Assembly: GCA_018883105.1 (NCBI GenBank)
Contig: VEQS01000006.1
Location: 1 to 34,609 of the forward strand
DNA from: Phycisphaerales bacterium
GTDB taxonomy: Bacteria; Planctomycetota; Phycisphaerae; Phycisphaerales; SM1A02
Direction of reading: 5' to 3'
DNA: 34,609 nucleotides
Shown here: positions 1,759 through 25,902 of the stretch, piece after piece
Layout of the letters: each line of letters starts with the position of its first letter
How positions within the stretch are numbered: position 1 is the stretch's first letter
The notes under the pieces: model-generated
The model's database searches: none
The model's input: the letters and a program-made list of their open reading frames with translations, nothing else
What the model was told of the DNA's origin: nothing
Position numbers and translations under genes: made by a program

Positions 1759-2541
1759 TCACGCCGCCCGCGTGCGGTACCAGCCGGTGAAGGTCGCGAA
1801 CCGCCCGCGGCCGCGCAGCCAGTCCACGTACTGCGCGAGGCGGTCGCACGCGCGTTCGCCGTCCACCCGGCGCATGTAGCGCGGAAGCCCGCTCCGGGAG
1901 AGGTCGATGAACTCCCACGGGTGCCAGAAGACGTTGAGCAGCCCGTCGGCATCGAGGCAGCGGGCGCTCGCGTCGCGCACCAGGGCCATCGGCAGGTTCT
2001 TCCAGGCCAGCCAGAAGAGCGGCAGCCGCAGGCGCGGCGTGGCCGAGATCGGGATCTCCAGCAGGTCGCCCTTCAGGTACGGCACGCGCGGACGGCCGAG
2101 GTTGTTGTAGCGGCCGGGCAGGAAGATCGGGTTCTCCGAGCTGTCCCACGCGTACCCGGCGGCGCGGATCGCGACCGGGTCGGTCGGCTGCAGCCGCGGG
2201 CGGCGGAACCCGAGCACCTCCTGTCCGCTGGTCTCGCGCAGCACCGCGCGGCTGGCGGCCAGGTCCGCGTCCTCGAAGGTGAGGTGCACGCGGCCGTGGC
2301 TGGCGATCTCGTGGCCGGCCGCGGCGCGGCGGTGGAGCGGCGCATGCCACGTGGCGAAGCTCGCCGTGGTGAACATGGTGGCCGGCACGCCGAGCGCGTC
2401 GAGCATGCCGAGCACGCGTTCCTGCCCGCGGCCGCCGAGCTCCATCTGCTCGGCCATCTCCATGGGCCGGCCGTAGGCGAGCGGCGCGTCGAACTCCTCG
2501 ACGTCGAAGCTCAGCAGGATGGCCGGGTCGGTCCGCGCCAC
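1759..2541 (-). CDS. Polysaccharide deacetylase family protein
   Basis: LSFDVEEFDAP..., GHEIASHGRVHLTFE, GFRRPRLQPT, FWHPWEF motifs of NodB/DUF3473-like deacetylases; GTG start, 1 bp downstream of the GT2 stop. Confidence 0.85.
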   Translation of the reverse strand: MARTDPAILLSFDVEEFDAPLAYGRPMEMAEQMELGGRGQERVLGMLDALGVPATMFTTASFATWHAPLHRRAAAGHEIASHGRVHLTFEDADLAASRAVLRETSGQEVLGFRRPRLQPTDPVAIRAAGYAWDSSENPIFLPGRYNNLGRPRVPYLKGDLLEIPISATPRLRLPLFWLAWKNLPMALVRDASARCLDADGLLNVFWHPWEFIDLSRSGLPRYMRRVDGERACDRLAQYVDWLRGRGRFATFTGWYRTRAA

Positions 2542-2542
2542 G

Positions 2543-3349
2543 TCAGTCGCGGTAGCGGCCGAGGATGGCGTCGGCCCGGATGCGCAGCAGGCTCACCAGC
2601 ATGCGCAGCGGGTCGCGCAGCAGGCGCACGTTGGAACCACCCGCATCGTGCGCGGGATTGACGCGCACCGGCACCTCGGCCACCGTCAGCCGGCGGCGCT
2701 TGGCGATGAACAGGAGCTCCGCGTCGAAGCCGAAGCCGCGGCTCGTGCGGCGCGCGAAGAGCTGGCGCGCGGCATCGAGCCGGAAGCCCTTGATGCCCGC
2801 CTGGGTGTCGCGGAATCGCAGGCCGAGGATCGTGCGCACCAGCAGGTTGTAGCCCTCGCCCATGACCCGGCGCAGGACACCGGCCTTGCGGTCGCCGTCG
2901 GCGATGCCGCGCGAGCCGATCGCCACGTCCGCCTGGCCGAGCGCGCGCTCGAGCTCGACCAGGAGCTCGGGGTCGTAGGCCAGGTCCCCGTCCATGAAGT
3001 ACACGAGCGGAGCCGAGGATCCCTCGATGCCGTGGGACACGGCATCCGCCTTGCCCACGTTGCGCGCGAGCGCATCGAGCGTCAGGCGCCCGCCGGCATC
3101 GTCGGAGGCAAGCAGCGCGCGCAGCGCATCGGCCGTGCCGTCCGGGCTGCCGTCGTCCACGAACCGCACCGCCCAGCCCGGGTGGCGGCACACGAATGCC
3201 GCCATCGCGGCGTGCACCTCCCCGACCATCGACCGCTCGCGGTAGAGCGGGACGATGACCTCGCTGGTGACGTCCGTGTGGTGCATGCGCGCGGGGAAGG
3301 CGTCGCGGGCTGGCCGTCCGATGGCCGGGGCCGCAGCGTGACTGGGCAT
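2543..3349 (-). CDS. Glycosyltransferase family 2 (dolichol-phosphate mannose synthase-like)
   Basis: VIVPLYRERSMVGEV, VDDGSPDGT, ARNVGKADAVSHGI, MDGDLAYDPE; start uncertain (3349 or 3286). Confidence 0.85.
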   Translation of the reverse strand: MPSHAAAPAIGRPARDAFPARMHHTDVTSEVIVPLYRERSMVGEVHAAMAAFVCRHPGWAVRFVDDGSPDGTADALRALLASDDAGGRLTLDALARNVGKADAVSHGIEGSSAPLVYFMDGDLAYDPELLVELERALGQADVAIGSRGIADGDRKAGVLRRVMGEGYNLLVRTILGLRFRDTQAGIKGFRLDAARQLFARRTSRGFGFDAELLFIAKRRRLTVAEVPVRVNPAHDAGGSNVRLLRDPLRMLVSLLRIRADAILGRYRD

Positions 3350-3404
3350 CCGGGAAGGATATCGGCATGCTCCAGCCCGCGAGCGCCCGTCCCCGCGGCG
3401 CACC

Positions 3405-3893
3405 TCACTTGCCGCGCGGCTTGCCGCCCGAACCCGCGAGGCTCAGCGGCACCTGGCGCGGCTTCACCTCCGGACGCTTGGGGATGCGCACCGTGACGAC
3501 GCCGTCGGACAGCCCGGCCTTCGCGGAATCGGGATCCACCGTCGCCGGCAGGTCGATCACGCGGCGGAAGGAACCGAAGCGCCGCTCGCAGCGGTACCAG
3601 TCGGCACCGCCCTGCTCCTCGTCGGAACGCTTCTCGCCCGAGATCACGAGCGAGTTGCCGATCATGGCCACCTCCACCTGGTCCTCGGCGATGCCGGGGA
3701 CCTCGGCGCGGACGGTGAACTCGTCGTCGGACTCGCTGACGTCGACGACGGGCATCCAGCCCTGGGTGCGGAACAGCTTGGGCTCGACGATCGGCTCGCC
3801 GAGGAAGGTCTCCAGGGTGCGCTCCATCTCGTCGCGGAAGCGGCCGAGCGGGGAGTCTGATGGCAGGCGGCGCGGGATCAGGCTGAGTGACAT
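3405..3893 (-). CDS. Hsp20/alpha-crystallin family small heat shock protein
   Basis: MSLSLIPRRLPSDSPLGRFRDEMERTLETF...WMPVVDVSESDDEFTVRAEVPGI...GVVTVRIPKRPEVKPRQVPL; SD-like AAGGAG upstream. Confidence 0.92.
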   Translation of the reverse strand: MSLSLIPRRLPSDSPLGRFRDEMERTLETFLGEPIVEPKLFRTQGWMPVVDVSESDDEFTVRAEVPGIAEDQVEVAMIGNSLVISGEKRSDEEQGGADWYRCERRFGSFRRVIDLPATVDPDSAKAGLSDGVVTVRIPKRPEVKPRQVPLSLAGSGGKPRGK

Positions 3894-3967
3894 GGGTGCT
3901 CCTTCGTTGCGTGGTGAACGTGGCGAACGTGCATTGGGTGCGTCAGGGGAACGAGGCATGCGGTGCC

Positions 3968-4654
3968 TCACGAGTAGGGGTCGACCACGATGCGGTCGTC
4001 GATGCCGGTCACGCCGGACGCGCAGCCGGCGACGCGTTCGACGGCATTGCGCTCGGCCCACGACTGGACCGCGCCGGAGAGCGTCACCACGCCGTCCTTC
4101 ACGGCGACGTTGATGCGACGCGCCTCGCGCTCGGCGCGGCGCTCGAGCGCGCGCTCGATCTGCAGGCGGATCGCCGCGGGGTCGACGGTCTTCGACTCGA
4201 CCGTCAGCCGGTTCACCACCTGCCGGACGCCGGTCAGCCGCTGCACCGCGCGCTCGGCATCGCCGCGCTGCGCCCAGGTGTCGACGCTGCCGCGCAGGGT
4301 CACCGTGCCGGAGGACACCGTGCACGAGATGCGCTCGTCCGGCAGGTAGGCGTCCCACTGCAGGCAGTCGCGCACCGCGCGGGCGATGTCGACGTCGCTG
4401 CGCAGCGACTCGGGCGTGGGCGCCACGGTCATCTCGTCGACCACGTCGAGCACGCCCTGCACGCGGTGCGCGGCCTCGATCACCGAGACTCGCGCGGCGA
4501 GCGACGGCGCCTGCCCGGTCACGGTGACGGCGCCGTTCTCGACGTTCACCTTGCACGGGACATCCCGGATGAACGGGTCCCACTCGATCTCGGACATGAT
4601 GTCCGCGCGGATGCGCGCATCCGACTTCATCATGGGCCTGGCGGTGATTGTCAT
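3968..4654 (-). CDS. BON-domain protein with three tandem BON domains
   Basis: Three repeats of the form I...EWDP..., V.V..G.VTL.G.V.SWAER..AER.......V; SD AAGGAGGAG upstream of ATG. Confidence 0.88.
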   Translation of the reverse strand: MTITARPMMKSDARIRADIMSEIEWDPFIRDVPCKVNVENGAVTVTGQAPSLAARVSVIEAAHRVQGVLDVVDEMTVAPTPESLRSDVDIARAVRDCLQWDAYLPDERISCTVSSGTVTLRGSVDTWAQRGDAERAVQRLTGVRQVVNRLTVESKTVDPAAIRLQIERALERRAEREARRINVAVKDGVVTLSGAVQSWAERNAVERVAGCASGVTGIDDRIVVDPYS

Positions 4655-4671
4655 GGCTCCTCCTTGGTTTC

Positions 4672-4688
4672 CGGGCCCGCGGGGCCCG
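4672..4688 (-). other. Perfect 7-bp hairpin in the 5' leader of the BON gene
   Basis: + strand cgggccc-gcg-gggcccg, about 18 nt upstream of the BON ATG, adjacent to but not including the SD. Confidence 0.5.
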
Positions 4689-4805
4689 ATCTCGACTGCC
4701 GCGCCGGCCGGACGTCGGCCGATCCGCGCATGAATGCAAACCTATGGAGTGCGGCACGGGAATGGAAGCGACCGGCGCGCGGGACCTTTCCGCGTTCCTC
4801 GGGCC

Positions 4806-6800
4806 CTACAGCCCAAACGGGTACGTGCCGGGGTCGGCGTCGTGCGTCGGCCCTGCCTTCGCGTCGACGGCGTGCGTCTCGGCGAACCACGCCCACTCGT
4901 CGAACTGCGCGGGAAGCGACGCGGCGAAGTAGTGGCTCGCCAGCTCCGTGTCCGCGCGGTAGATGACGCCGACCGCGCGCTCGAGCATCGGCTCGGCAAG
5001 CGCCTCGCGCACGGTGTCGCGGCCAAGCCCGCGCATCGGCAGCAGGAACCGCGGGATCCCCGAGCGCGTGCACGCCCGCTCGTAGCTCTCCGGATGCGAG
5101 TGGCGCAGGTCCCGGACGGCCATCGGCCCGTCCCACTCGAGCGCGGCAGCCACCGTGCCGCGGTCGGTCCCCATGCCGATCAGGTAGGCGCCGTCGCCGA
5201 ACGCGGAGCGGGCGAGCGCCCCCAGGCTGGTCTCGCCGCGCGCGCCCATCTCGGTGGCGGTGGCGTCGCCGACATGCGAGTTGTGCGCCCACACCACCGC
5301 GCGGCAGCCAGGGCCGCCCCGCTCCATCACCGCCTGGAGCGTCTCGAACATGTGCGTGTCGCGCAGGTTCCAGGACTCGCGGGACCCCAGGTACATGGCG
5401 CGGTAGTAGGCCTCGGCGGACCGCACCAGCGCGGCGTTGCGCTGCGCGTCGAAGAGGTCGTCGTGCGCCGCGGCCGCGACGCGGGTGCGCAGCATCTCGC
5501 CGAGCATCGCGACGGCGTCCTGCTCGCAACCCTCGAGCGTGCCCGACACCACCGCACGCCCGTAGCGCGCCGGGTCGTCCGCCCATGGCGAGAGGCACCC
5601 GTACCGGCGGCGCGCCCGCGCGGCGGCGGCCGGGTCGCTCCGGTCCAGGAAGCCGAGCACCGCCGCGATCGACCGGTCCATGGCGTAGATGTCCAGGCCG
5701 CAGACGCGCACCCGCGGCACGGAAGCATCGCGCTGGCGCACGCGGAGCCAGTCGATGAACTCGGCGGTCTCGCGGTTTCGCCACATCCACGCGGGGAAGC
5801 GCGTGAACGCGGATGTCCGCGCGGGATCGTCGCCCTCGCCGCGTGCGTGCCGGTCGAGCACCGCGGCATCCGGCCAATCGGCCTCGAGCGCCACCACGCG
5901 GAAGCCGCGCTTCTCGATCAGTTCGCGCGTGATCCGCGCGCGCAGCCGGTAGAACTCGCTGGTGCCGTGCGTCGACTCGCCGATCAGGACGACGCGCGCC
6001 GACCCGATGCGCGCAAGCAGCCGGCCGAAGTCCGCCAGCTCGATGTCGGCGAACGGCTCGCACGCGACGGCGATGGCGCCCGAAGCCACCTCGGCCCGCA
6101 CGTCGGAACCGCGGGTGCTGCGCTTGCGGCGCACCGGGACGGCCGGTCCCGCCGACCACCCCTGCGCGCCCACGAGCGGCACGAAGCGCACTGCGCCGAG
6201 CGACTCGCGCTCAATGGTGCCGTCGAGCGCGCGGACGATCCGCACCAGCTCCTGTCCCTGCGGATCGCGCCCGACCGGGATCACCAGGCGCCCGCCGGGC
6301 GCCAGCTGCGCCAGGAGACTCGGCGGCACGTCCGGTCCGCCGGCGGACACGACGATCGCTTCGAACGGCGCGCGCGTCGGCACGCCGACCGAGCCGTCCC
6401 CCTGCAGCACCGTCACGTTCCGGAACCCAAGCCGCTGAAGGCGCTCGCGCGCGATCTCCGCAAGCTTCGGATGGCGCTCGATGGCCACCACCTCGGCGCA
6501 GAGGAGCGAAAGCACCGCGCTCGCGTAGCCCGACCCCGCACCGACTTCCAGCACGCGGTCGCCGGGCGACAGCCGTGCAGCCTCGGCCATCAGCGCCACG
6601 ATGTACGGCTGCGAGATCGTCTGCCCGTCCTCGATGGGAAGCGGAAGGTCCTCGTAGGCCATGGCGCGGTAGCGGTCGCCGACGAACTCCTCGCGCGGCA
6701 CCGCGTCCATCGCCGCGACCACGCGGGAATCCACCACGCCGCGCGCCACCACCTGGCGTCGCACCATGTCATGCCGTCCGGCGGCGCTTGCGAAGGTCAT
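4806..6800 (-). CDS. Fusion protein: protein-L-isoaspartate O-methyltransferase (N-terminal) and erythromycin esterase family domain (C-terminal)
   Basis: N-term: VGDRYRAMAYEDLPLPIEDGQTISQPY, VLEVGAGSGYASAVLS (PCMT). C-term: VVLIGESTHGTSEFYRLR...VVALEADWPDA, VVWAHNSHVGDA (EreA/EreB family). One uninterrupted frame; SD GGAGG before ATG. Confidence 0.93.
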   Translation of the reverse strand: MTFASAAGRHDMVRRQVVARGVVDSRVVAAMDAVPREEFVGDRYRAMAYEDLPLPIEDGQTISQPYIVALMAEAARLSPGDRVLEVGAGSGYASAVLSLLCAEVVAIERHPKLAEIARERLQRLGFRNVTVLQGDGSVGVPTRAPFEAIVVSAGGPDVPPSLLAQLAPGGRLVIPVGRDPQGQELVRIVRALDGTIERESLGAVRFVPLVGAQGWSAGPAVPVRRKRSTRGSDVRAEVASGAIAVACEPFADIELADFGRLLARIGSARVVLIGESTHGTSEFYRLRARITRELIEKRGFRVVALEADWPDAAVLDRHARGEGDDPARTSAFTRFPAWMWRNRETAEFIDWLRVRQRDASVPRVRVCGLDIYAMDRSIAAVLGFLDRSDPAAAARARRRYGCLSPWADDPARYGRAVVSGTLEGCEQDAVAMLGEMLRTRVAAAAHDDLFDAQRNAALVRSAEAYYRAMYLGSRESWNLRDTHMFETLQAVMERGGPGCRAVVWAHNSHVGDATATEMGARGETSLGALARSAFGDGAYLIGMGTDRGTVAAALEWDGPMAVRDLRHSHPESYERACTRSGIPRFLLPMRGLGRDTVREALAEPMLERAVGVIYRADTELASHYFAASLPAQFDEWAWFAETHAVDAKAGPTHDADPGTYPFGL

Positions 6801-6994
6801 GGAACCTCCACCCGGCTGGCGCGCACCGAACCGCCCGACAGCAGCGTCTGCACCGCACGCTCGGCCTCGAGCATGTTGAGCACATGGTTGCCGCCCACCG
6901 AACGCTGCAGTTCCTCGGCAATGACGCAAACGACGCGATCGGTCACGTCGACCACTCGCGAAGGCTCGGATATCGGGCGTATCACCAGCCGCAT
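6797..6994 (-). CDS. Small hypothetical protein (65 aa) overlapping the PCMT-Ere start by ATGA
   Basis: Strong SD AGGAGGAG upstream of ATG; 4-bp stop/start overlap with the next gene, suggesting translational coupling. No family recognised. Confidence 0.65.
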   Translation of the reverse strand: MRLVIRPISEPSRVVDVTDRVVCVIAEELQRSVGGNHVLNMLEAERAVQTLLSGGSVRASRVEVP

Positions 6995-7089
6995 GGGGGC
7001 TCCTCCTGGCAGAAATTGTCACGCGATCCAACGACGGTCGACGATCGCCCTCATCACGCATCCTCGTGGCACGGCCGCGATGCGCAAGC

Positions 7090-7115
7090 GGGGAGGTTTC
7101 CCCCAAACCCGGGGG
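7090..7115. promoter_or_regulatory. Palindromic GC element GGGGAGGTTTCCCCCAAACCCGGGGG in a divergent intergenic region
   Basis: Contains GGTTT-CCCCC-AAACC and CCCCC-AAACCC-GGGGG alternative dyads, 57 bp upstream of the histidine kinase ATG. Confidence 0.4.
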
Positions 7116-7171
7116 TGATGTGCGTGACCGGGGCGTCTTCCACGGGTACATCCTTGAGGCGGAGGGGAATC

Positions 7172-9106
7172 ATGCATACGTTCCACCGGGTGATGGCGGC
7201 CGTTCCTCCAGATCATGGCGTGCGCGAGATTCCCGTGCTGCTCGCTTCCGCGGCGCGGATGGGCGGCGTTGACGCGGCCGCGCTGCTCCTCCAGGAACCG
7301 GGAAAGTCCGGCACCACCGCCGTGGCCTGGCACGGCCTGAGCGACCGCGAGGCCTCGGCCATCATCCCGTTCGCGCAGACGTCGTACGTCCCGCGCAGCA
7401 TCACCGAGCCCTGCACCATCACGGATCTGGGCGTGGGCGATGCCGTCCCGGACTTCGCGGCGCTGGCCATCCGCGACGCGGGCTTCCGCGCCATGCGCCT
7501 TTCCCCGATCCGCGACAACGACGGCACCGCCTTCGCGGTGTTGCTGGCGCTGCGACGTGCGCCCCTGACCGACCCTCGGCCCGCCGACGAGCTCCTCGAC
7601 CTCGTCGGCGGGCACGCCGCTGCGCTCGCGCAGGCGGACTTCGCGCGCCGGCAGCAGGCGCTCAGCGAGGCACAGCTCCGCGCCATCGTCGAGAGCCTGG
7701 GCGAGGTCATCCTGCGATTCGACGCGATGGGGACCATCGAGGCCGCCAGCCCGTCGTCGGAGACGGTGCTCGGGTGCACGCCGGATTCGCTGGTCGGCAC
7801 GCCGATCGACGGCGTGCTGCAGGAGGTCGATCCGTCGATCTCTCCGCGCGCCGTCGCGACGTACGCCGCGGGCGGCCGGGCGCCGCGATTCGGTCGCACC
7901 GTCCAGGCGAAGGCACGGCGTTCCGACGGCCGCTCGGTACCGGTCGAGCTGGTGGTCTGCGAAGTGGAGCGTCGCGCGCGCTTCGTGGCCATCCTGCGCG
8001 ACAACGAGGCCGAGCGCATCGCCGATGCCCGGCTTCGGCAGGCGGACCGGCTCACCGCGCTCGGCACGCTCGCCGCCGGACTCGGCCACGACATGAACAA
8101 CGTGCTGCTGCCGGTGCGCGCGCACCTCAACGCACTGGAGCGGACGACCGCGGCACCGGACGCGGCGCCTGCCTCCGCGGGCGACCATGTCGCCGAGATC
8201 CGAAACGGCCTCGAGTACCTGCAGGGGCTGGCCGACGGCCTGCACTCGCTCGCCAACGACCCCGGGCACGCCAACGGCAACGGGGACGGCACCGACCTGA
8301 ACGCCTGGTGGGCGCGCGTGCAGGCACTGCTGCGCCAGGCAGTGCCGCCGCTCACCATCGTCACGGCCGAGATCCCTGCCGGGCTGCCACGTGTCGACGT
8401 GGCCGAGCGCGCCCTGACGCAGGCAGTGCTCAATCTCTTCGTCAATGCCGGCGAAGCCATCACGGCCGCACGACGGGATGCACCCGGCAAGGTGACGCTT
8501 CGCGCCTCGTGCACGCCCGACGGCCAGTCCATCGAGGTCTCGGTGTCGGACACCGGCTGCGGCATGAGCGAGGAAACCCGCGCCCGCGCCTTCGACATGT
8601 TCTTCACCACGAAGACCAGGCAGGTCGGATCGGGGCTCGGGCTTGCCCTCGTCCAGCGCGTGGCGCGCGAGGCCGGCGGCTCGGTGGCGATCGACTCCGT
8701 GCCGGGCGAGGGGACGGTGATCCGCATGGCGCTGCCGCCCTGCCCGCTGCCGACATCGGTCACCGACCTGCACGTCGCCGTCTCGCTCGCCGACGGCCGC
8801 GCCGCCGCGTTCATGGAATCGGCGATGCGCGCCCGCGGCATGCGGATGGTGACCCAGGACGACCCATCCGAGGCCGATGCGTGGATCGCCGATCCACGCA
8901 TCGTCGCCGCGCGCGACGCGGTGCGTTGGCTGGCCAGGCGGGCCGGACGCACGCTCGTCCTCTCCGGCGAGCCGATCCCCGCCGCGCGGCGCGCCTGGCG
9001 CGGCATCGCGGCCGGCATCATCCCGCGCCACACCGATTTCGACACCCTCCTGGTCGGCGTCGACCAGGCATGTTCCATCATCCAGAGGAGGAGAGACGAT
9101 GAATGA
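7172..9106 (+). CDS. GAF/PAS-domain sensor histidine kinase with C-terminal degenerate receiver-like extension
   Basis: SD GGAGGGG; PAS-like AIVESLGEVILRFDAMGTIEAASPSSETVLG; H-box AAGLGHDMNN; N-box QAVLNLFVNAGEAI; G1 VSDTGCGM; G2 GSGLGLALVQ. Confidence 0.9.
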   Translation: MHTFHRVMAAVPPDHGVREIPVLLASAARMGGVDAAALLLQEPGKSGTTAVAWHGLSDREASAIIPFAQTSYVPRSITEPCTITDLGVGDAVPDFAALAIRDAGFRAMRLSPIRDNDGTAFAVLLALRRAPLTDPRPADELLDLVGGHAAALAQADFARRQQALSEAQLRAIVESLGEVILRFDAMGTIEAASPSSETVLGCTPDSLVGTPIDGVLQEVDPSISPRAVATYAAGGRAPRFGRTVQAKARRSDGRSVPVELVVCEVERRARFVAILRDNEAERIADARLRQADRLTALGTLAAGLGHDMNNVLLPVRAHLNALERTTAAPDAAPASAGDHVAEIRNGLEYLQGLADGLHSLANDPGHANGNGDGTDLNAWWARVQALLRQAVPPLTIVTAEIPAGLPRVDVAERALTQAVLNLFVNAGEAITAARRDAPGKVTLRASCTPDGQSIEVSVSDTGCGMSEETRARAFDMFFTTKTRQVGSGLGLALVQRVAREAGGSVAIDSVPGEGTVIRMALPPCPLPTSVTDLHVAVSLADGRAAAFMESAMRARGMRMVTQDDPSEADAWIADPRIVAARDAVRWLARRAGRTLVLSGEPIPAARRAWRGIAAGIIPRHTDFDTLLVGVDQACSIIQRRRDDE

Positions 9107-9881
9107 CAGCGCGATCGCGACGGCCGAACCGGCCGCGTCCGCCCGCACGCTGGCGCGGAAGAAGGCCGTCAGCCCCGTCACCGGGACGTGCGAGGTGGTG
9201 GTGCGCCTCATGTGCGTCGACGACCACGCGCTGCTGGTGCAGGGAATGCGCGTCCAGGCCGAGCTTGACCCGGAGATCGACTTCGTGTCGGGCCTGCCCG
9301 ACACATCACGCCTGGTCGACGAGGTGGCCCGAATCCAGCCCGACGTCATCACGCTCGACGTCGAGATGCCAGGCCCGGACGTGTTCGAGACCGCCGACCG
9401 CCTGCGCCAGCGATTCCCCGACGTCCGCTTCGCGTTCCTGAGCGCGCACGTGCGCGACGGGCTGCTGGCGGCGGCCTACCGCTGCGGCGCATCCGGATAC
9501 TTCGCCAAGGGCGACGACCTGCGGGACATCCTCGACGGCCTGAAGCGGATCGCCCGCAGCGCGCGCGGCACGTTCATCATGGGGCCGAAGGTCGTGGCGC
9601 AGTGCCCCGCGGCCCGGGCCGTGCGCGGCACCAAGCGGTCGCGCCGGGGCAGCCGCGACGCCGAGCAGATCGTCAGCGCGGTCGACCGCCTGAGTTCCCG
9701 CGAGATCGAGGTGCTTCGGCACATCGGCAACGGCATGTCCCGCGTCGAGATCGGAAAGGCGCTCTCGCGCAGCCCCAAGACGATCGACGGCCACCAGGAG
9801 CGCATCATGCGCAAGCTCGGCATCGCCACGCGCAGCGAGCTGATGCGCTTCGCGATCCGCGAGGGCATCGTCCAGGCATGA
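9099..9881 (+). CDS. NarL/LuxR-type response regulator
   Basis: REC domain (VRLMCVDDHALL...VITLDVEMPGPD...FLSAHVR...GASGYFAKGDD) and LuxR HTH (LSSREIEVLRHIGNGMSRVEIGKALSRSPKTIDGHQERIMRKLGI); overlaps the HK by 8 bp. Confidence 0.93.
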   Translation: MNDSAIATAEPAASARTLARKKAVSPVTGTCEVVVRLMCVDDHALLVQGMRVQAELDPEIDFVSGLPDTSRLVDEVARIQPDVITLDVEMPGPDVFETADRLRQRFPDVRFAFLSAHVRDGLLAAAYRCGASGYFAKGDDLRDILDGLKRIARSARGTFIMGPKVVAQCPAARAVRGTKRSRRGSRDAEQIVSAVDRLSSREIEVLRHIGNGMSRVEIGKALSRSPKTIDGHQERIMRKLGIATRSELMRFAIREGIVQA

Positions 9882-10127: not shown

Positions 10128-10775
10128 ATGACACCCAAGCGCAAGAAGCCACTGGCCGCCACGACTGCGGCGGCGGCAGCCGCGTTCGCCATCCAGGCCG
10201 CGGCACATGCCGCCGTGACCGTCGCCAACTACGCCCCGTGCAAGTCGACCGAGGGATTCGGTGACTTCCTGGCCACCGTCACCTACACCTACACGGGCGG
10301 GACCAGCGCGTCGCTCTCGGTCCAGCTGGACAACACGACGCTGCCGGCCCTCGGTGGCTACATCACCGCGTTTGCGCTGAATCCCGGCACCGGCGTGACG
10401 GCGATGGCGTTCGTTTCCAGCACGTCGGCGAACTTCTCGGGCTTGTCAGGGCCGGTGTCCACCCCGCCGTTCGGGTCGTTCATGACCGGCGCATCCACCG
10501 GGAGCGGCTGGCTCGGCGGAGGCAGCCCGAACGGCGGCATCGGCATCGGCATGTCGGCGACCTTCGTGTTCTCGATGACCGGCAGCGCCGCCGCGCTCGG
10601 CGCACTCGACGCCGAGACGGTGCTGGCCGCGGGCTGCGACGCGATGGCGGTCCGCTTCCGCGGCGGCGCGGTCACCGGCTGGTCGGACAAGGTGCTCGGG
10701 CAGGCGCTGCCGACGCCGGGCACGCTGGCCGTCGCCGGCCTCGCGGCGCTCGGCCGTCGCCGTCGACGCCGGTGA
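10128..10775 (+). CDS. Secreted protein with C-terminal PEP-CTERM-like sorting tail
   Basis: N-terminal signal peptide (MTPKRKKPLAATTAAAAAAFAIQAAAHA); C-terminus LPTPGTLAVAGLAALGRRRRRR; SD GAGGAG. Confidence 0.82.
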   Translation: MTPKRKKPLAATTAAAAAAFAIQAAAHAAVTVANYAPCKSTEGFGDFLATVTYTYTGGTSASLSVQLDNTTLPALGGYITAFALNPGTGVTAMAFVSSTSANFSGLSGPVSTPPFGSFMTGASTGSGWLGGGSPNGGIGIGMSATFVFSMTGSAAALGALDAETVLAAGCDAMAVRFRGGAVTGWSDKVLGQALPTPGTLAVAGLAALGRRRRRR

Positions 10776-10793
10776 GCCGCACGACGCATGCAG

Positions 10794-10821
10794 CCGCGCG
10801 CGCCACGGAGGGCGCGCGCGG
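10794..10821 (+). terminator. Perfect 11-bp hairpin downstream of the sorted-protein gene (no T-tract)
   Basis: CCGCGCGCGCC-acggag-GGCGCGCGCGG, flanked on both sides by GCATGC. Confidence 0.5.
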
Positions 10822-11007
10822 CGCGGCATGCGGGAAGTGTCCGCGCGCTTGCGAGGCGATTGCATCGAAGTCACGCGAGAACCGACCACGGCCATTGAAC
10901 CGCGCACCCCGTCGGGCCACCATCCGGCCCCTGTGACGCGCGAGCCCCACGTCGGCGGACACGCGCGGCACCAAAGACCTGACCGCGAACCAGACCAGGA
11001 GCACTCC

Positions 11008-11754
11008 ATGCAGATTCGAACGAGCGTCGCCGTCCTCGCCATCGCCGCCGCGGCATCCGCCGCCGGACACGCCCACGCCGTGGTCGTGCTGGCGAACGGG
11101 CAATCCATCGGCCTGTCGAGCCTGCTCACGCGCAACGGCGACAGGACGGTGCAGATCGACGACAAGGCCTTCACCTTCCAGTCCGTGACGTCGTCGACCT
11201 TCTCCCTGGCGAACTTCAGCATCCGCGCCTACGTCTCCGCGGGCACCAACCAGTGGGGGCTGCACGACGTCGGCTTCGACATCGTGGGGCCGTTCGCGGA
11301 TTCCACGCCGGGCAACGGCATGTATGCCGACATGAACATCCGCTACACCGTGGAGGTCCTGCCGGCGGCCTACGCGGCCGACGTGAGCCTCCGCGGCATC
11401 GGGCTGTCCTTCGACGGCGCCGTCACCGGCACGGGGTCCATCGCGCGGGTCGACGAGACGGTGTTCGACCTCGACCGCAACGCGTTCATGGGGAACCTCG
11501 CGGCCTTCGCGGCCGCAGGTCCGCCGCCGAGCGGCACCTGGTCGGGCTCGCTCGACTTCACCCAGATGCACGGGGTCCTCGGATACCGCGCGCTGGAGGT
11601 CAACAAGAACATCAAGTTCCTGGCAACGGCCGGCGGCAGCGCCACGGCGACGTTCGTCCGCCAGGAATTCAGCCAAGTGATGCTCCCCGCCCCGGGCGCG
11701 GTTGCGCTCCTCGGCGTCGGCACGGCATTCGCCCGCGGCAGGCGCCGCCGGTGA
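11008..11754 (+). CDS. Secreted protein, sorting-tail paralog A
   Basis: Signal peptide MQIRTSVAVLAIAAAASAAGHAHA; tail LPAPGAVALLGVGTAFARGRRRR; shares VDETVFDLD.N.F.GNL and GYRA.EVNKN.KF with the next gene. Confidence 0.82.
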   Translation: MQIRTSVAVLAIAAAASAAGHAHAVVVLANGQSIGLSSLLTRNGDRTVQIDDKAFTFQSVTSSTFSLANFSIRAYVSAGTNQWGLHDVGFDIVGPFADSTPGNGMYADMNIRYTVEVLPAAYAADVSLRGIGLSFDGAVTGTGSIARVDETVFDLDRNAFMGNLAAFAAAGPPPSGTWSGSLDFTQMHGVLGYRALEVNKNIKFLATAGGSATATFVRQEFSQVMLPAPGAVALLGVGTAFARGRRRR

Positions 11755-11767
11755 ATGCGCGGATTCC

Positions 11768-11797
11768 GTTCACGTTCACGTTCCAGTTCCAGTTCCC
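11768..11797 (+). repeat. Imperfect hexamer tandem repeat in the spacer between the paralogs
   Basis: GTTCAC GTTCAC GTTCCA GTTCCA GTTCCC, five 6-bp units. Confidence 0.6.
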
Positions 11798-11817
11798 AAC
11801 CCTCACAGGAGACATGC

Positions 11818-12543
11818 ATGACACCCATTCGAAGCGCCGCGTCCCTCGCCCTCGTGCTCGCCCTCGCCGGAACCGGCTCCGCCTCGGCCAGCGTGGTGGT
11901 GCTCGGCAACGGCGACTCCATCAAGCTGGAGGACCTCATCGCCGGCGGCGGCCAGTTCATCGTCGAGGACAAGCTCTTCACCATTGAGTCCTGGCGGTCG
12001 GACGTGTTCTCCGCCGGCAACATCTCGGTGATCGGCTTCATCTCGCTGAACCCGAACCAGTGGGGCCAGTACAACGTCGGGTTCGACCTCGTCGGGCCGT
12101 TCGGCGACGGCACCCCCGGCGACCAGGTCGTCCACGAAGGGAACATCCAGTACACGGTGGAGGTGCTTCCGCAGTACTACCAGCAGGGAGTCCGGCTGTT
12201 CGACATCGGCCTGGTGTTCAACGGTTCGTCGGGCGGCCCCGGCTCGTTCTCGCGCGTCGACGAGACGGTCTTCGACCTCGACACCAACACCTTCCTCGGC
12301 AACCTGTCGGTGTTCTACAACGACAACACCCCGCCGCAGGTGCAGTTGTCCGACGAGGACGTGTTCAGCCTCGCCGGCTACCGGGCCTTCGAGGTGAACA
12401 AGAACATGAAGTTCTTCTCGCCGACCGCGGGCGGCTTCGCCACCGCCTCGTTCATCCGACAGGAGTTCAGCCAGATCCCGGCCCCGGGCGCGCTCGCGCT
12501 GCTCGGCGCCGCGGGCCTGGCGGCGCGCCGCCGTCGCCGCTGA
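11818..12543 (+). CDS. Secreted protein, sorting-tail paralog B
   Basis: Signal peptide MTPIRSAASLALVLALAGTGSASA; tail IPAPGALALLGAAGLAARRRRR; clear tandem paralog of 11008..11754. Confidence 0.85.
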   Translation: MTPIRSAASLALVLALAGTGSASASVVVLGNGDSIKLEDLIAGGGQFIVEDKLFTIESWRSDVFSAGNISVIGFISLNPNQWGQYNVGFDLVGPFGDGTPGDQVVHEGNIQYTVEVLPQYYQQGVRLFDIGLVFNGSSGGPGSFSRVDETVFDLDTNTFLGNLSVFYNDNTPPQVQLSDEDVFSLAGYRAFEVNKNMKFFSPTAGGFATASFIRQEFSQIPAPGALALLGAAGLAARRRRR

Positions 12544-23963: not shown

Positions 23964-24467
23964 TCACGCCCCAGCAGCCATTGCCGCCGCCTTGTTGATC
24001 CCCGCGGCCAAGGCGGACAGGTCCGCATCCAGCTTCCGCTCCTCGGTGAGGGCCAGCTGCAGCCGGGCCACCGACTGGGGGAACCCGAGGAGCTCCACCC
24101 AGCTGCGCGCGCACCCGTAGCCGGCGATCCGGTCGTGGGCGATGTGCTGGACGCCCGCGATGATCGCCGCGTCCCGGACGCCCGAGTCCGTCTTGGTGGC
24201 CTTGGCGAGGTCCACGCAGTCCCGCGCCAGGCCCTTCATGCCCTCGGTCTCTGCGCGCGCCGGGTGCGGCCGTGCGCCGAGCTCGCGGAACACGTCGTCC
24301 AGCCGGCGCTCGCGCTCCTTCGCCGACTCGCCGTCGCGGCGCAGGAGCGCCGCCAGCTGCTGGTCGGACGCCGTGCGCGACAGTTCGGGCATCAGCTTCG
24401 CGGCGCGCCGCTCGGCGGCATAGAGCTCGTTGAGCTGCGTGACGAGGAGTTCCTTGAGGGTGTTCAT
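23964..24467 (-). CDS. DUF892/YciF-type ferritin-like stress protein
   Basis: MNTLKELLVTQLNELYAAERRAAKLMPELSRTASDQQL...GVQHIAHDRIAGYGCARSWVELLG...LTEERKLDADLSALA. Confidence 0.88.
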   Translation of the reverse strand: MNTLKELLVTQLNELYAAERRAAKLMPELSRTASDQQLAALLRRDGESAKERERRLDDVFRELGARPHPARAETEGMKGLARDCVDLAKATKTDSGVRDAAIIAGVQHIAHDRIAGYGCARSWVELLGFPQSVARLQLALTEERKLDADLSALAAGINKAAAMAAGA

Positions 24468-24594
24468 GGGCATGCGACGAAGCATCCACGGGAACACGCC
24501 GGTTCCCAAGCCGGAAAGTGCCGCGCTTTCGCGGGGTGCGCGGGACGATGCCCCTCTGGAGCACCGCGAGCCGCCGATTCACTACCGTACCCAC

Positions 24595-25902
24595 ATGGAG
24601 CACGCGTCCCCGAGGCACCATGCCATGCTCGCGTTCCAGGCGCTGGTGGCCGCGACGACCGTCGCGGCGTCGGTGCTGGTGCCGCTGCAGCTGGCGTTCC
24701 CGGAATCGGGCGTGTGGACGGGCTTCGGGCTCGACATGGCCGTGACCGCCGTCTTCGCGGTCGACCTGGCCACCAACCTGGCGCGGGCGCGCCGCCCCGC
24801 CGGGCCGCACGCGCGCGCGCAGGGCACGGGCAGCGTCGCGTGGTGGACGGCGGTCGACCTCGCGGCCGCGGTGCCGTTCGACCTGATGTTCGCATCGCCG
24901 CTGGCGATCCTGCCGCGCATGGCGAAGGTCCTCCGCCTGGCGCAGTGGTTCGGCTCCTGGCGCATCCGGTTCGTCAAGCGCGTCGAGCTGGTGAAGCTCG
25001 GCATCTTCGCGTTCTGGCTCCTGCTCACCGCACACTGGCTGGCCTGCGTCTGGAGCTCGATCACGCCGACCTACGAGGGCGACGCCGCCACGCGCTACCT
25101 CGCCTCCTACTACTGGGTGGTGGAGACGCTGGCCACGGTGGGCTACGGCGAGACCACGCCCGTCACCAACCTGCAGCGCGTGTTCGCGATCGGCGTGATG
25201 CTGACGGGCGTCGCCGTCTACGGCTACGTGATCGGCAACGTGGCCGGCATGCTGGCGCGGCGCGACCCTGCGAAGACGCAGTACTTCGAGAACATCGACC
25301 GCCTGAACACCTTCATCAAGCACCGCGACCTGCCGCCGGAGCTGCGGGCGCGGATCCTGGACTACTACGCCTACGTGTGGCGGCGCCGGCTGGGGTTCGA
25401 CGAGGCGTCGTTCCTGGGCACCCTGCCCCCCGGACTGCGGCGCGAGGTGGAGATGGAGCTCAAGCGCGACCTGCTCTCGCGCATCCCGCTCTTCCGCGGG
25501 CTCTCCGAGGCGTTCCTGGAGGAAGTGGCGCTCTCCTTGCGTCCGGACGTGTACGTGCCCGGCGAGCATGTCTTCCGCCAGGGGCAGCCTGGCGACCGGA
25601 TGTACTTCGTCATCGAGGGGACGCTCAAGGTGCTGCGCGGCGACGACGAGGTGGGACGGCTCTCCGACGGCAACTTCTTCGGCGAGGTCGCGCTCTTCAC
25701 CAACCAGCCGCGCAACGCGTCGGTCCAGGCCGCCACCTACTGCGACCTGTATGCCCTCGACCGCGGCGCCTTCACGCGCCTGCTCGAGCGCTTCCCCGAC
25801 GTCGGCGAGCGGCTGCGCGAGGTGGCGCTGACCCGCCACGGCACGCCGGTGGCGGCGGCGGCCCCGCCCGCGCCGCCCTCCACGCCGCCCGCCGCGCCAT
25901 GA
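24595..25902 (+). CDS. Six-TM cyclic-nucleotide-gated K+ channel (SthK-like) with C-linker and CNBD
   Basis: Pore filter ATVGYGETTP; S4-like PRMAKVLRLAQWFGSWRIRFVKR; C-linker and CNBD FGEVALFTNQPRNASVQA. Confidence 0.92.
   Translation: MEHASPRHHAMLAFQALVAATTVAASVLVPLQLAFPESGVWTGFGLDMAVTAVFAVDLATNLARARRPAGPHARAQGTGSVAWWTAVDLAAAVPFDLMFASPLAILPRMAKVLRLAQWFGSWRIRFVKRVELVKLGIFAFWLLLTAHWLACVWSSITPTYEGDAATRYLASYYWVVETLATVGYGETTPVTNLQRVFAIGVMLTGVAVYGYVIGNVAGMLARRDPAKTQYFENIDRLNTFIKHRDLPPELRARILDYYAYVWRRRLGFDEASFLGTLPPGLRREVEMELKRDLLSRIPLFRGLSEAFLEEVALSLRPDVYVPGEHVFRQGQPGDRMYFVIEGTLKVLRGDDEVGRLSDGNFFGEVALFTNQPRNASVQAATYCDLYALDRGAFTRLLERFPDVGERLREVALTRHGTPVAAAAPPAPPSTPPAAP

Follow-up and report, generated by a model that had tools for sequence, protein, structure and literature searches.

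We analysed a stretch of 34,609 nucleotides (the window), which is one contig of a 2.76-Mb, 87% complete draft genome of a Phycisphaerales bacterium, and in it a locus (1759-9881) where genes for a small protein, a PCMT-Ere fusion, a triple-BON protein and Hsp20 are divergent from a histidine kinase and a response regulator. From the genes, their synteny, the statistics of a palindromic box and the co-occurrence of this box with the regulator, all established computationally, we consider it probable that a conserved stress regulon of planctomycetes, run by a two-component system, has its local core here, and that its cue would be low oxygen, energy limitation or quiescence. A preliminary description of this DNA had listed these genes, followed by a GT2 glycosyltransferase and a deacetylase, and had placed the kinase-regulator pair in divergence from an intergenic region of 177 bp; Pfam matches and coordinates confirmed the inventory, and the region, between the small gene and the kinase, is found at 6995-7171. 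The features are given below, the six minus-strand genes in their order of transcription.

6797..6994, minus strand: small protein of 65 amino acids, of an unnamed conserved family; 4-bp overlap with the start of the PCMT-Ere gene
4806..6800, minus strand: PCMT-Ere fusion of 664 amino acids (PF01135 and PF05139)
3968..4654, minus strand: triple-BON (OsmY-like) protein of 228 amino acids (three PF04972 stretches)
3405..3893, minus strand: Hsp20 small heat-shock protein (PF00011, E=2e-21)
2543..~3286/3403, minus strand: GT2 glycosyltransferase (Glycos_transf_2 in Pfam)
1759..2541, minus strand: CE4 polysaccharide deacetylase (Polysacc_deac_1 in Pfam)
7172..9106, plus strand: PAS histidine kinase (PF00989; PF02518, HATPase_c)
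9099..9881, plus strand: NarL/FixJ (LuxR)-type response regulator (PF00072, Response_reg; PF00196, GerE)
7086..7107: candidate regulator box 1, AAGCGGGGAGGTTTCCCCCAAA, 91 bp from the small gene and 64 bp from the kinase
4776..4797: candidate regulator box 2, CGCGCGGGACCTTTCCGCGTTC, between PCMT-Ere and BON, 121 bp ahead of the start of BON
23964..24485, minus strand: DUF892 (YciF-like) gene (PF05974), with a weak box (24507-24528) just upstream

Conserved synteny indicates that the grouping of these genes exceeds chance. In relatives, the kinase-regulator pair is repeatedly a neighbour of genes for PCMT-Ere, BON, Hsp20, universal stress proteins (USP), DUF892, CBS and host-attachment proteins, and its synteny with PCMT-Ere, BON and Hsp20 is kept in several genera and several families within the order. 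(In labels such as G000:C154, G-numbers are genomes, G000 being that of the window, L-numbers are loci and C-numbers are contigs; the nearest relatives in the open genome collection are metagenome-assembled genomes labelled Phycisphaera mikurensis, L002 and L003.) Within the genus of the window, G604 (L282) carries the small gene, PCMT-Ere, BON and Hsp20 in the order of the window, G058 carries PCMT-Ere, BON and Hsp20, and in G099 the regulator is divergent from the small gene and PCMT-Ere, with no kinase at the site. Two genomes of another genus, G045 and G072, hold USP, BON, Hsp20 and DUF892 as one group, PCMT-Ere, a host-attachment (baeRF) gene and the small gene as a second one, and a divergent kinase-regulator pair; G089 has the same parts, rearranged. 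Hsp20 adjoins BON in G058, G604, G045, G072 and others, DUF892 adjoins Hsp20 or BON in L112, L113, L129 and L130, and the triple-BON protein of the window is 39-81% identical to those of the conserved clusters.

We fetched 20-kb regions around members of the regulator subfamily and around other LuxR regulators, and searched them in six frames with profiles for BON, Hsp20, USP, DUF892, CBS, host attachment and the 65-amino-acid protein (self-trained gene calling picked antisense frames in GC-rich loci). Stress genes were found near 11 of the 19 subfamily regulators versus 2 of the 21 others. The subfamily is distinct within its class (its top 22 matches score at least 257 bits), and the orthologues of the regulator, 45-70% identical to it, have the acidic pair, the phospho-Asp and the Lys intact. 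DevR (3c3w) is among the solved structures related to the regulator, VraR and NarL being nearer. The kinase, whose H-box reads GLGHDMNN and which has an additional C-terminal tail, shares 32-35% identity and an invariant H with the kinases in the clusters of relatives; its structure prediction is poor (predicted local distance difference test, pLDDT, of 41). In 11 of 20 loci drawn by the 65-amino-acid family alone, the small gene is divergent from the kinase-regulator pair.

The 65-amino-acid reading frame is a real conserved gene family. It is present in 38 of the 301 genomes of the order, in 23 genera, its member in the window being 37-46% identical to six relatives, with the consensus IRP..P...DVTD.LV.AIA.EL.R..GGN..LNRLEAE.HL. 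The protein has no match in Pfam or NCBIfam. DUF2934 was considered and rejected (no match to PF11154; one relative reached 7 bits, E=5.8). The predicted structure, beta-beta-alpha-alpha, is of moderate confidence (pLDDT 77, one of five models being above 70) and gave no fold match.

Between the small gene and the kinase lies a 22-bp palindrome, GATnGGGGAAnnTTCCnCGT, which is also found upstream of BON, USP and small genes. The site GGGGAGGTTTCCCC at 7090-7103, in this gap, has one mismatch to GGGGAANNTTCCCC; it is the best match of the window, and the only one in the 34.6 kb with fewer than three mismatches. The palindrome occupies the same place in L112, L113, L126 and L128, and a site of this kind also separates small gene and kinase in L264-L270 and L280. 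The consensus from 22 sites is GATCGGGGAAGTTTCCGCGTGG, in which A2, GGA (7-9) and CC (15-16) are near-invariant. We trained a matrix on kinase-divergent sites alone, all from other genomes, and applied it to the stress genes; it found sites in 11 of 38 upstream regions at p<=0.05 (binomial p 1.7e-6), those before BON lying at 94-135 bp. Applied to 20 loci outside its training, it gave 24 boxes of at least 15 bits in 335 kb, and 12 of them fall in the 250 bp that precede stress genes, a zone that makes up 4.2% of the sequence and in which 1.0 would be expected (p=5e-11; the sites are from related genomes, and this p-value, like the preceding one, overstates their independence). Several of the remaining 12 precede the kinase, and the reversed matrix, as a control, gave 0. 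The boxes also follow the regulator: 26 boxes of at least 13 bits were found in the 11 loci which have it, and 3, on short contigs, in the 9 which do not.

In the window, box 1 is a conserved block shared with G604. Box 2 has a held-out p of 0.05 alone, occupies the same relative position as the boxes before BON elsewhere, and is the best-conserved block of the PCMT-Ere/BON gap in G058, of the same genus (AACGCGGAAAnnTCCCGCG). The DUF892 box has a held-out p of 0.03, the gene being 14 kb away; an ion channel with a cyclic-nucleotide-binding domain (24625-25902) is divergent from the DUF892 gene, and both genes face this weak box. Outside the contig, most strong sites of the pattern in the window's genome fall inside genes, and hence we do not claim a wider regulon in it. 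The strongest box-like site found there, the near-perfect palindrome CACCGGGGAAAGTTCCCCGTTC (L225 2979-3000, G000:C154 ~5978-5999), is 17 bp before a gene for a STAS/anti-anti-sigma-like protein of 124 amino acids.

The spacing of the minus-strand genes agrees with more than one transcription unit. The preliminary description had spoken of short gaps or overlaps; this holds for the small gene and PCMT-Ere, but PCMT-Ere and BON are 151 bp apart, BON and Hsp20 74 bp. Hsp20 and GT2 are probably separated by about 118 bp, provided that the ATG at 3286 is the GT2 start. A single operon of six genes is unlikely because of these unequal gaps (151, 74 and ~118 bp), and it was rejected because the 151-bp gap has its own candidate box and because GT2 and CE4 are independent (see below).

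We infer the following mechanism. The PAS kinase would sense a cellular cue and phosphorylate the NarL/FixJ-type regulator, which would bind the 22-bp palindrome. At box 1 this would activate expression of the small protein and of PCMT-Ere, with autoregulation, and at box 2 expression of BON and Hsp20. The products may then benefit non-growing cells by preserving their proteins and membranes, through isoaspartate repair, holdase activity and the association of BON with lipids or membranes. Such a regulon would operate like those of DevR/DosR and OsdR and like the microoxia regulon of FixLJ-FixK2.

The likeness to DevR/DosR of Mycobacterium and OsdR of Streptomyces extends to several levels. 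In each case a NarL-type regulator stands beside a kinase, and the regulator of the window has, like DevR, an intact receiver and a GerE helix-turn-helix. The box is, there as here, a palindrome of ~16-22 bp, G-rich then C-rich, ~80-145 bp before the genes. The targets of DevR/DosR and OsdR include USP, a small heat-shock protein and pyruvate phosphate dikinase (PMC5069765, PMC4410610), and the DevR/DosR target Rv2030c is an erythromycin-esterase fusion with a PRT domain (PMC4410610). Of the USP, Hsp20, CBS and Ere-fusion genes of a DevR/DosR regulon, Hsp20 and an Ere fusion are present in the window, the Ere domain being fused to PCMT instead of PRT, whereas USP and CBS occur in the relatives' clusters only; BON and the new small protein are additions, and USP is missing from the genome. 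The box architecture is similar but its sequence is different, GGGGAAnnTTCC here versus GGGACTTNNGNCCC there, and the DevR-type box GGGACTTNNGNCCCT is replaced by GATnGGGGAAnnTTCCnCGT. DosS and DosT are GAF-heme sensor kinases, while the kinase of the window has PAS and no detected GAF. Since both the kinase and the box sequence differ, the planctomycete regulon would work by analogy with DevR/DosR/OsdR and is not a member of that family. In Bradyrhizobium, genes induced by microoxia encode PCMT (bll4651), host-attachment, CBS, USP and Hsp20 proteins, PEP synthase and cbb3 oxidase (PMC6515984). The relatives' clusters contain these kinds of genes too (bll4651 being likened as a PCMT only), but in Bradyrhizobium part of the set is controlled by FixK2, a CRP/FNR protein, via a different site.

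Low oxygen, limited energy or quiescence is the likeliest cue, because the box-headed genes of the relatives match the kinds found in the DevR/DosR, OsdR and Bradyrhizobium microoxia sets. The boxes of relatives head genes for Dps-like ferritins, a bacterial globin, S30AE hibernation proteins, a COX1-FixO cbb3 oxidase, a PEP synthase (PPDK_N) and USP. One of these box-headed genes (L317 2872-3765) fuses an S30AE domain to TrkA_N; another (L265 4177-6579), whose box is 109 bp upstream, has COX1 (FixN-like) and FixO fused into a protein of 800 amino acids.

A rather unlikely alternative is that the two-component control is real and that its cue is protein or envelope damage by heat, oxidation or desiccation. 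The conserved targets of the window itself, namely the repair enzyme PCMT, the holdase Hsp20 and BON, would suit such a cue, and so would a genome without USP; but the cbb3 oxidase, globin, S30AE, Dps and PEP synthase genes which boxes head in relatives are typical of microoxia and quiescence, and GT2 and CE4 are outside the set. The preliminary description had proposed that the two-component system controls a damage response of proteins and envelope, possibly coupled to polysaccharide remodelling. Conserved synteny and the common palindrome support the control of the stress genes; envelope damage as the specific signal is unsupported, as the relatives' targets point rather to low oxygen, energy limitation or dormancy.

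Several observations weigh against a regulon with an oxygen or energy cue. No USP was found in the window's assembly (87% complete), whereas 13 of 14 control genomes have the family, and the S30AE genes of this genome have no convincing box; the oxygen and energy reading thus rests on relatives. The CBS genes of the genome also lack a convincing box, and with no USP and one single copy of Hsp20 in the assembly, the regulon looks reduced here. The kinase, which had been described as GAF/PAS, has PAS and HATPase_c only, with no GAF in Pfam at E<0.1 (a GAF_2 was found in the kinase of the relative L127). Box 1 scores low in G604, where box 2 is absent, and in the window box 2 and that of DUF892 are weak, being equalled in score by other sites. 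Finally, no box accompanies the gene cluster in L271, L277 and L283, and at L131, L136-L139, L142 and L143 a subfamily regulator has neither stress genes nor boxes.

In a second alternative, a different regulator (for example CRP/FNR-like or another LuxR) binds the box, and the kinase-regulator pair is only one of its targets. Binding by the regulator of the window is deduced from adjacency and co-occurrence only, and the regulator and cluster of L271, L277 and L283 have no box; on the other hand the boxes go together with the regulator locus, and the palindrome matches DevR/OsdR sites in its size and G/C-flanked form, so that we judge this alternative improbable. A coincidental neighbourhood of generic stress genes with no specific regulatory link, which the clustering of stress genes in many bacteria and the different PCMT-Ere neighbours in Proteobacteria might suggest, is very improbable in view of the 11/19 versus 2/21 regulators, of the small gene, which diverges from the same kinase in 11 of the 20 new loci, and of the 12 of 24 boxes where 1.0 was expected.

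GT2 and CE4 are probably outside the regulon, as a separate module which would lie downstream by happenstance, because they are paired in relatives without Hsp20 or BON nearby. CE4 orthologues were found in 10 other genomes among 61; a GT2 relative adjoins in 8 of these 10, and Hsp20 or BON in none. GT2-CE4 adjoins Hsp20 in the window only, and in G058 the pair is on a different contig from the stress genes, the CE4 orthologue on C105 and PCMT-Ere, BON and Hsp20 on C136. The link to polysaccharide remodelling is therefore unsupported. The pair is conserved in Phycisphaera relatives (L331-L340), and from the likeness of GT2 to AglJ/PpgS-type synthases its product is possibly a deacetylated polyprenyl-linked sugar.

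The PCMT-Ere fusion as such is not new: relatives exist at at least 531 loci, mainly in Alphaproteobacteria, as single proteins of 660-670 amino acids with both domains full length, and they differ only in gene neighbourhood. Within the family of the window, it was found full length in 8 of 101 genomes (one of the 8 being a fragment). The PCMT domain (E=2e-59) scores above the curated cut-offs (NF001453, 233 bits for a cut-off of 188; TIGR00080, 199 for 159), the Erythro_esteras domain (E=2e-116) covers PF05139 in full (positions 1-358 of 358), and the motifs GQTISQPY, EVGAGSGY, GESTHGTSEFY and AHNSHVGD are present. A role in macrolide resistance is not indicated, because the scores for EreA/EreB (34.8 bits for NF000209, 23.2 for NF000208) are far below the cut-off of 750. 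Among the 80 best of the at least 531 PCMT-Ere loci, mostly of Proteobacteria, the neighbourhood of the window was seen in its own relatives only; the proteobacterial loci have other neighbours and scattered Hsp20 matches. As for the triple-BON protein, it shares BON repeats with OsmY and other BON stress proteins, but it has three BON domains and its OsmY-like match (NF007858) is under the OsmY cut-off.

Two further regions flank the locus. At 28-1749, convergent with CE4, a remnant of a SulP-family permease is fused to a beta-carbonic anhydrase; its N-terminal half is absent in frame, and the contig begins there. Directly after the regulator (10128-12543) come several small exported-looking proteins with arginine-rich tails (PEP-CTERM-like endings), one of which is preceded by a box-like site at 10827.

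The control of stress and quiescence is little described in Planctomycetota, and our literature searches yielded no description of a regulon like this in the phylum, nor of this locus. The regulon is apparently undescribed, though the kind of system is known, and its regulator, box and target list are proposed here together. A bolder claim, which we regard as possible but doubtful, is that of an independently evolved dormancy or microoxia master regulon of Planctomycetota, with its own 22-bp box, which would unite protein repair, a chaperone, ribosome hibernation, high-affinity respiration and the small protein, which might then be a new quiescence effector. The PCMT-Ere fusion would gain a physiological context other than antibiotic resistance. 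A toolkit of Hsp20, USP, CBS, Ere fusion and hibernation factor would be placed under DevR in actinobacteria, under FixK2 in rhizobia and under the regulator of the window in planctomycetes, which would suggest that bacteria have repeatedly rewired one set of survival genes under unrelated regulators.

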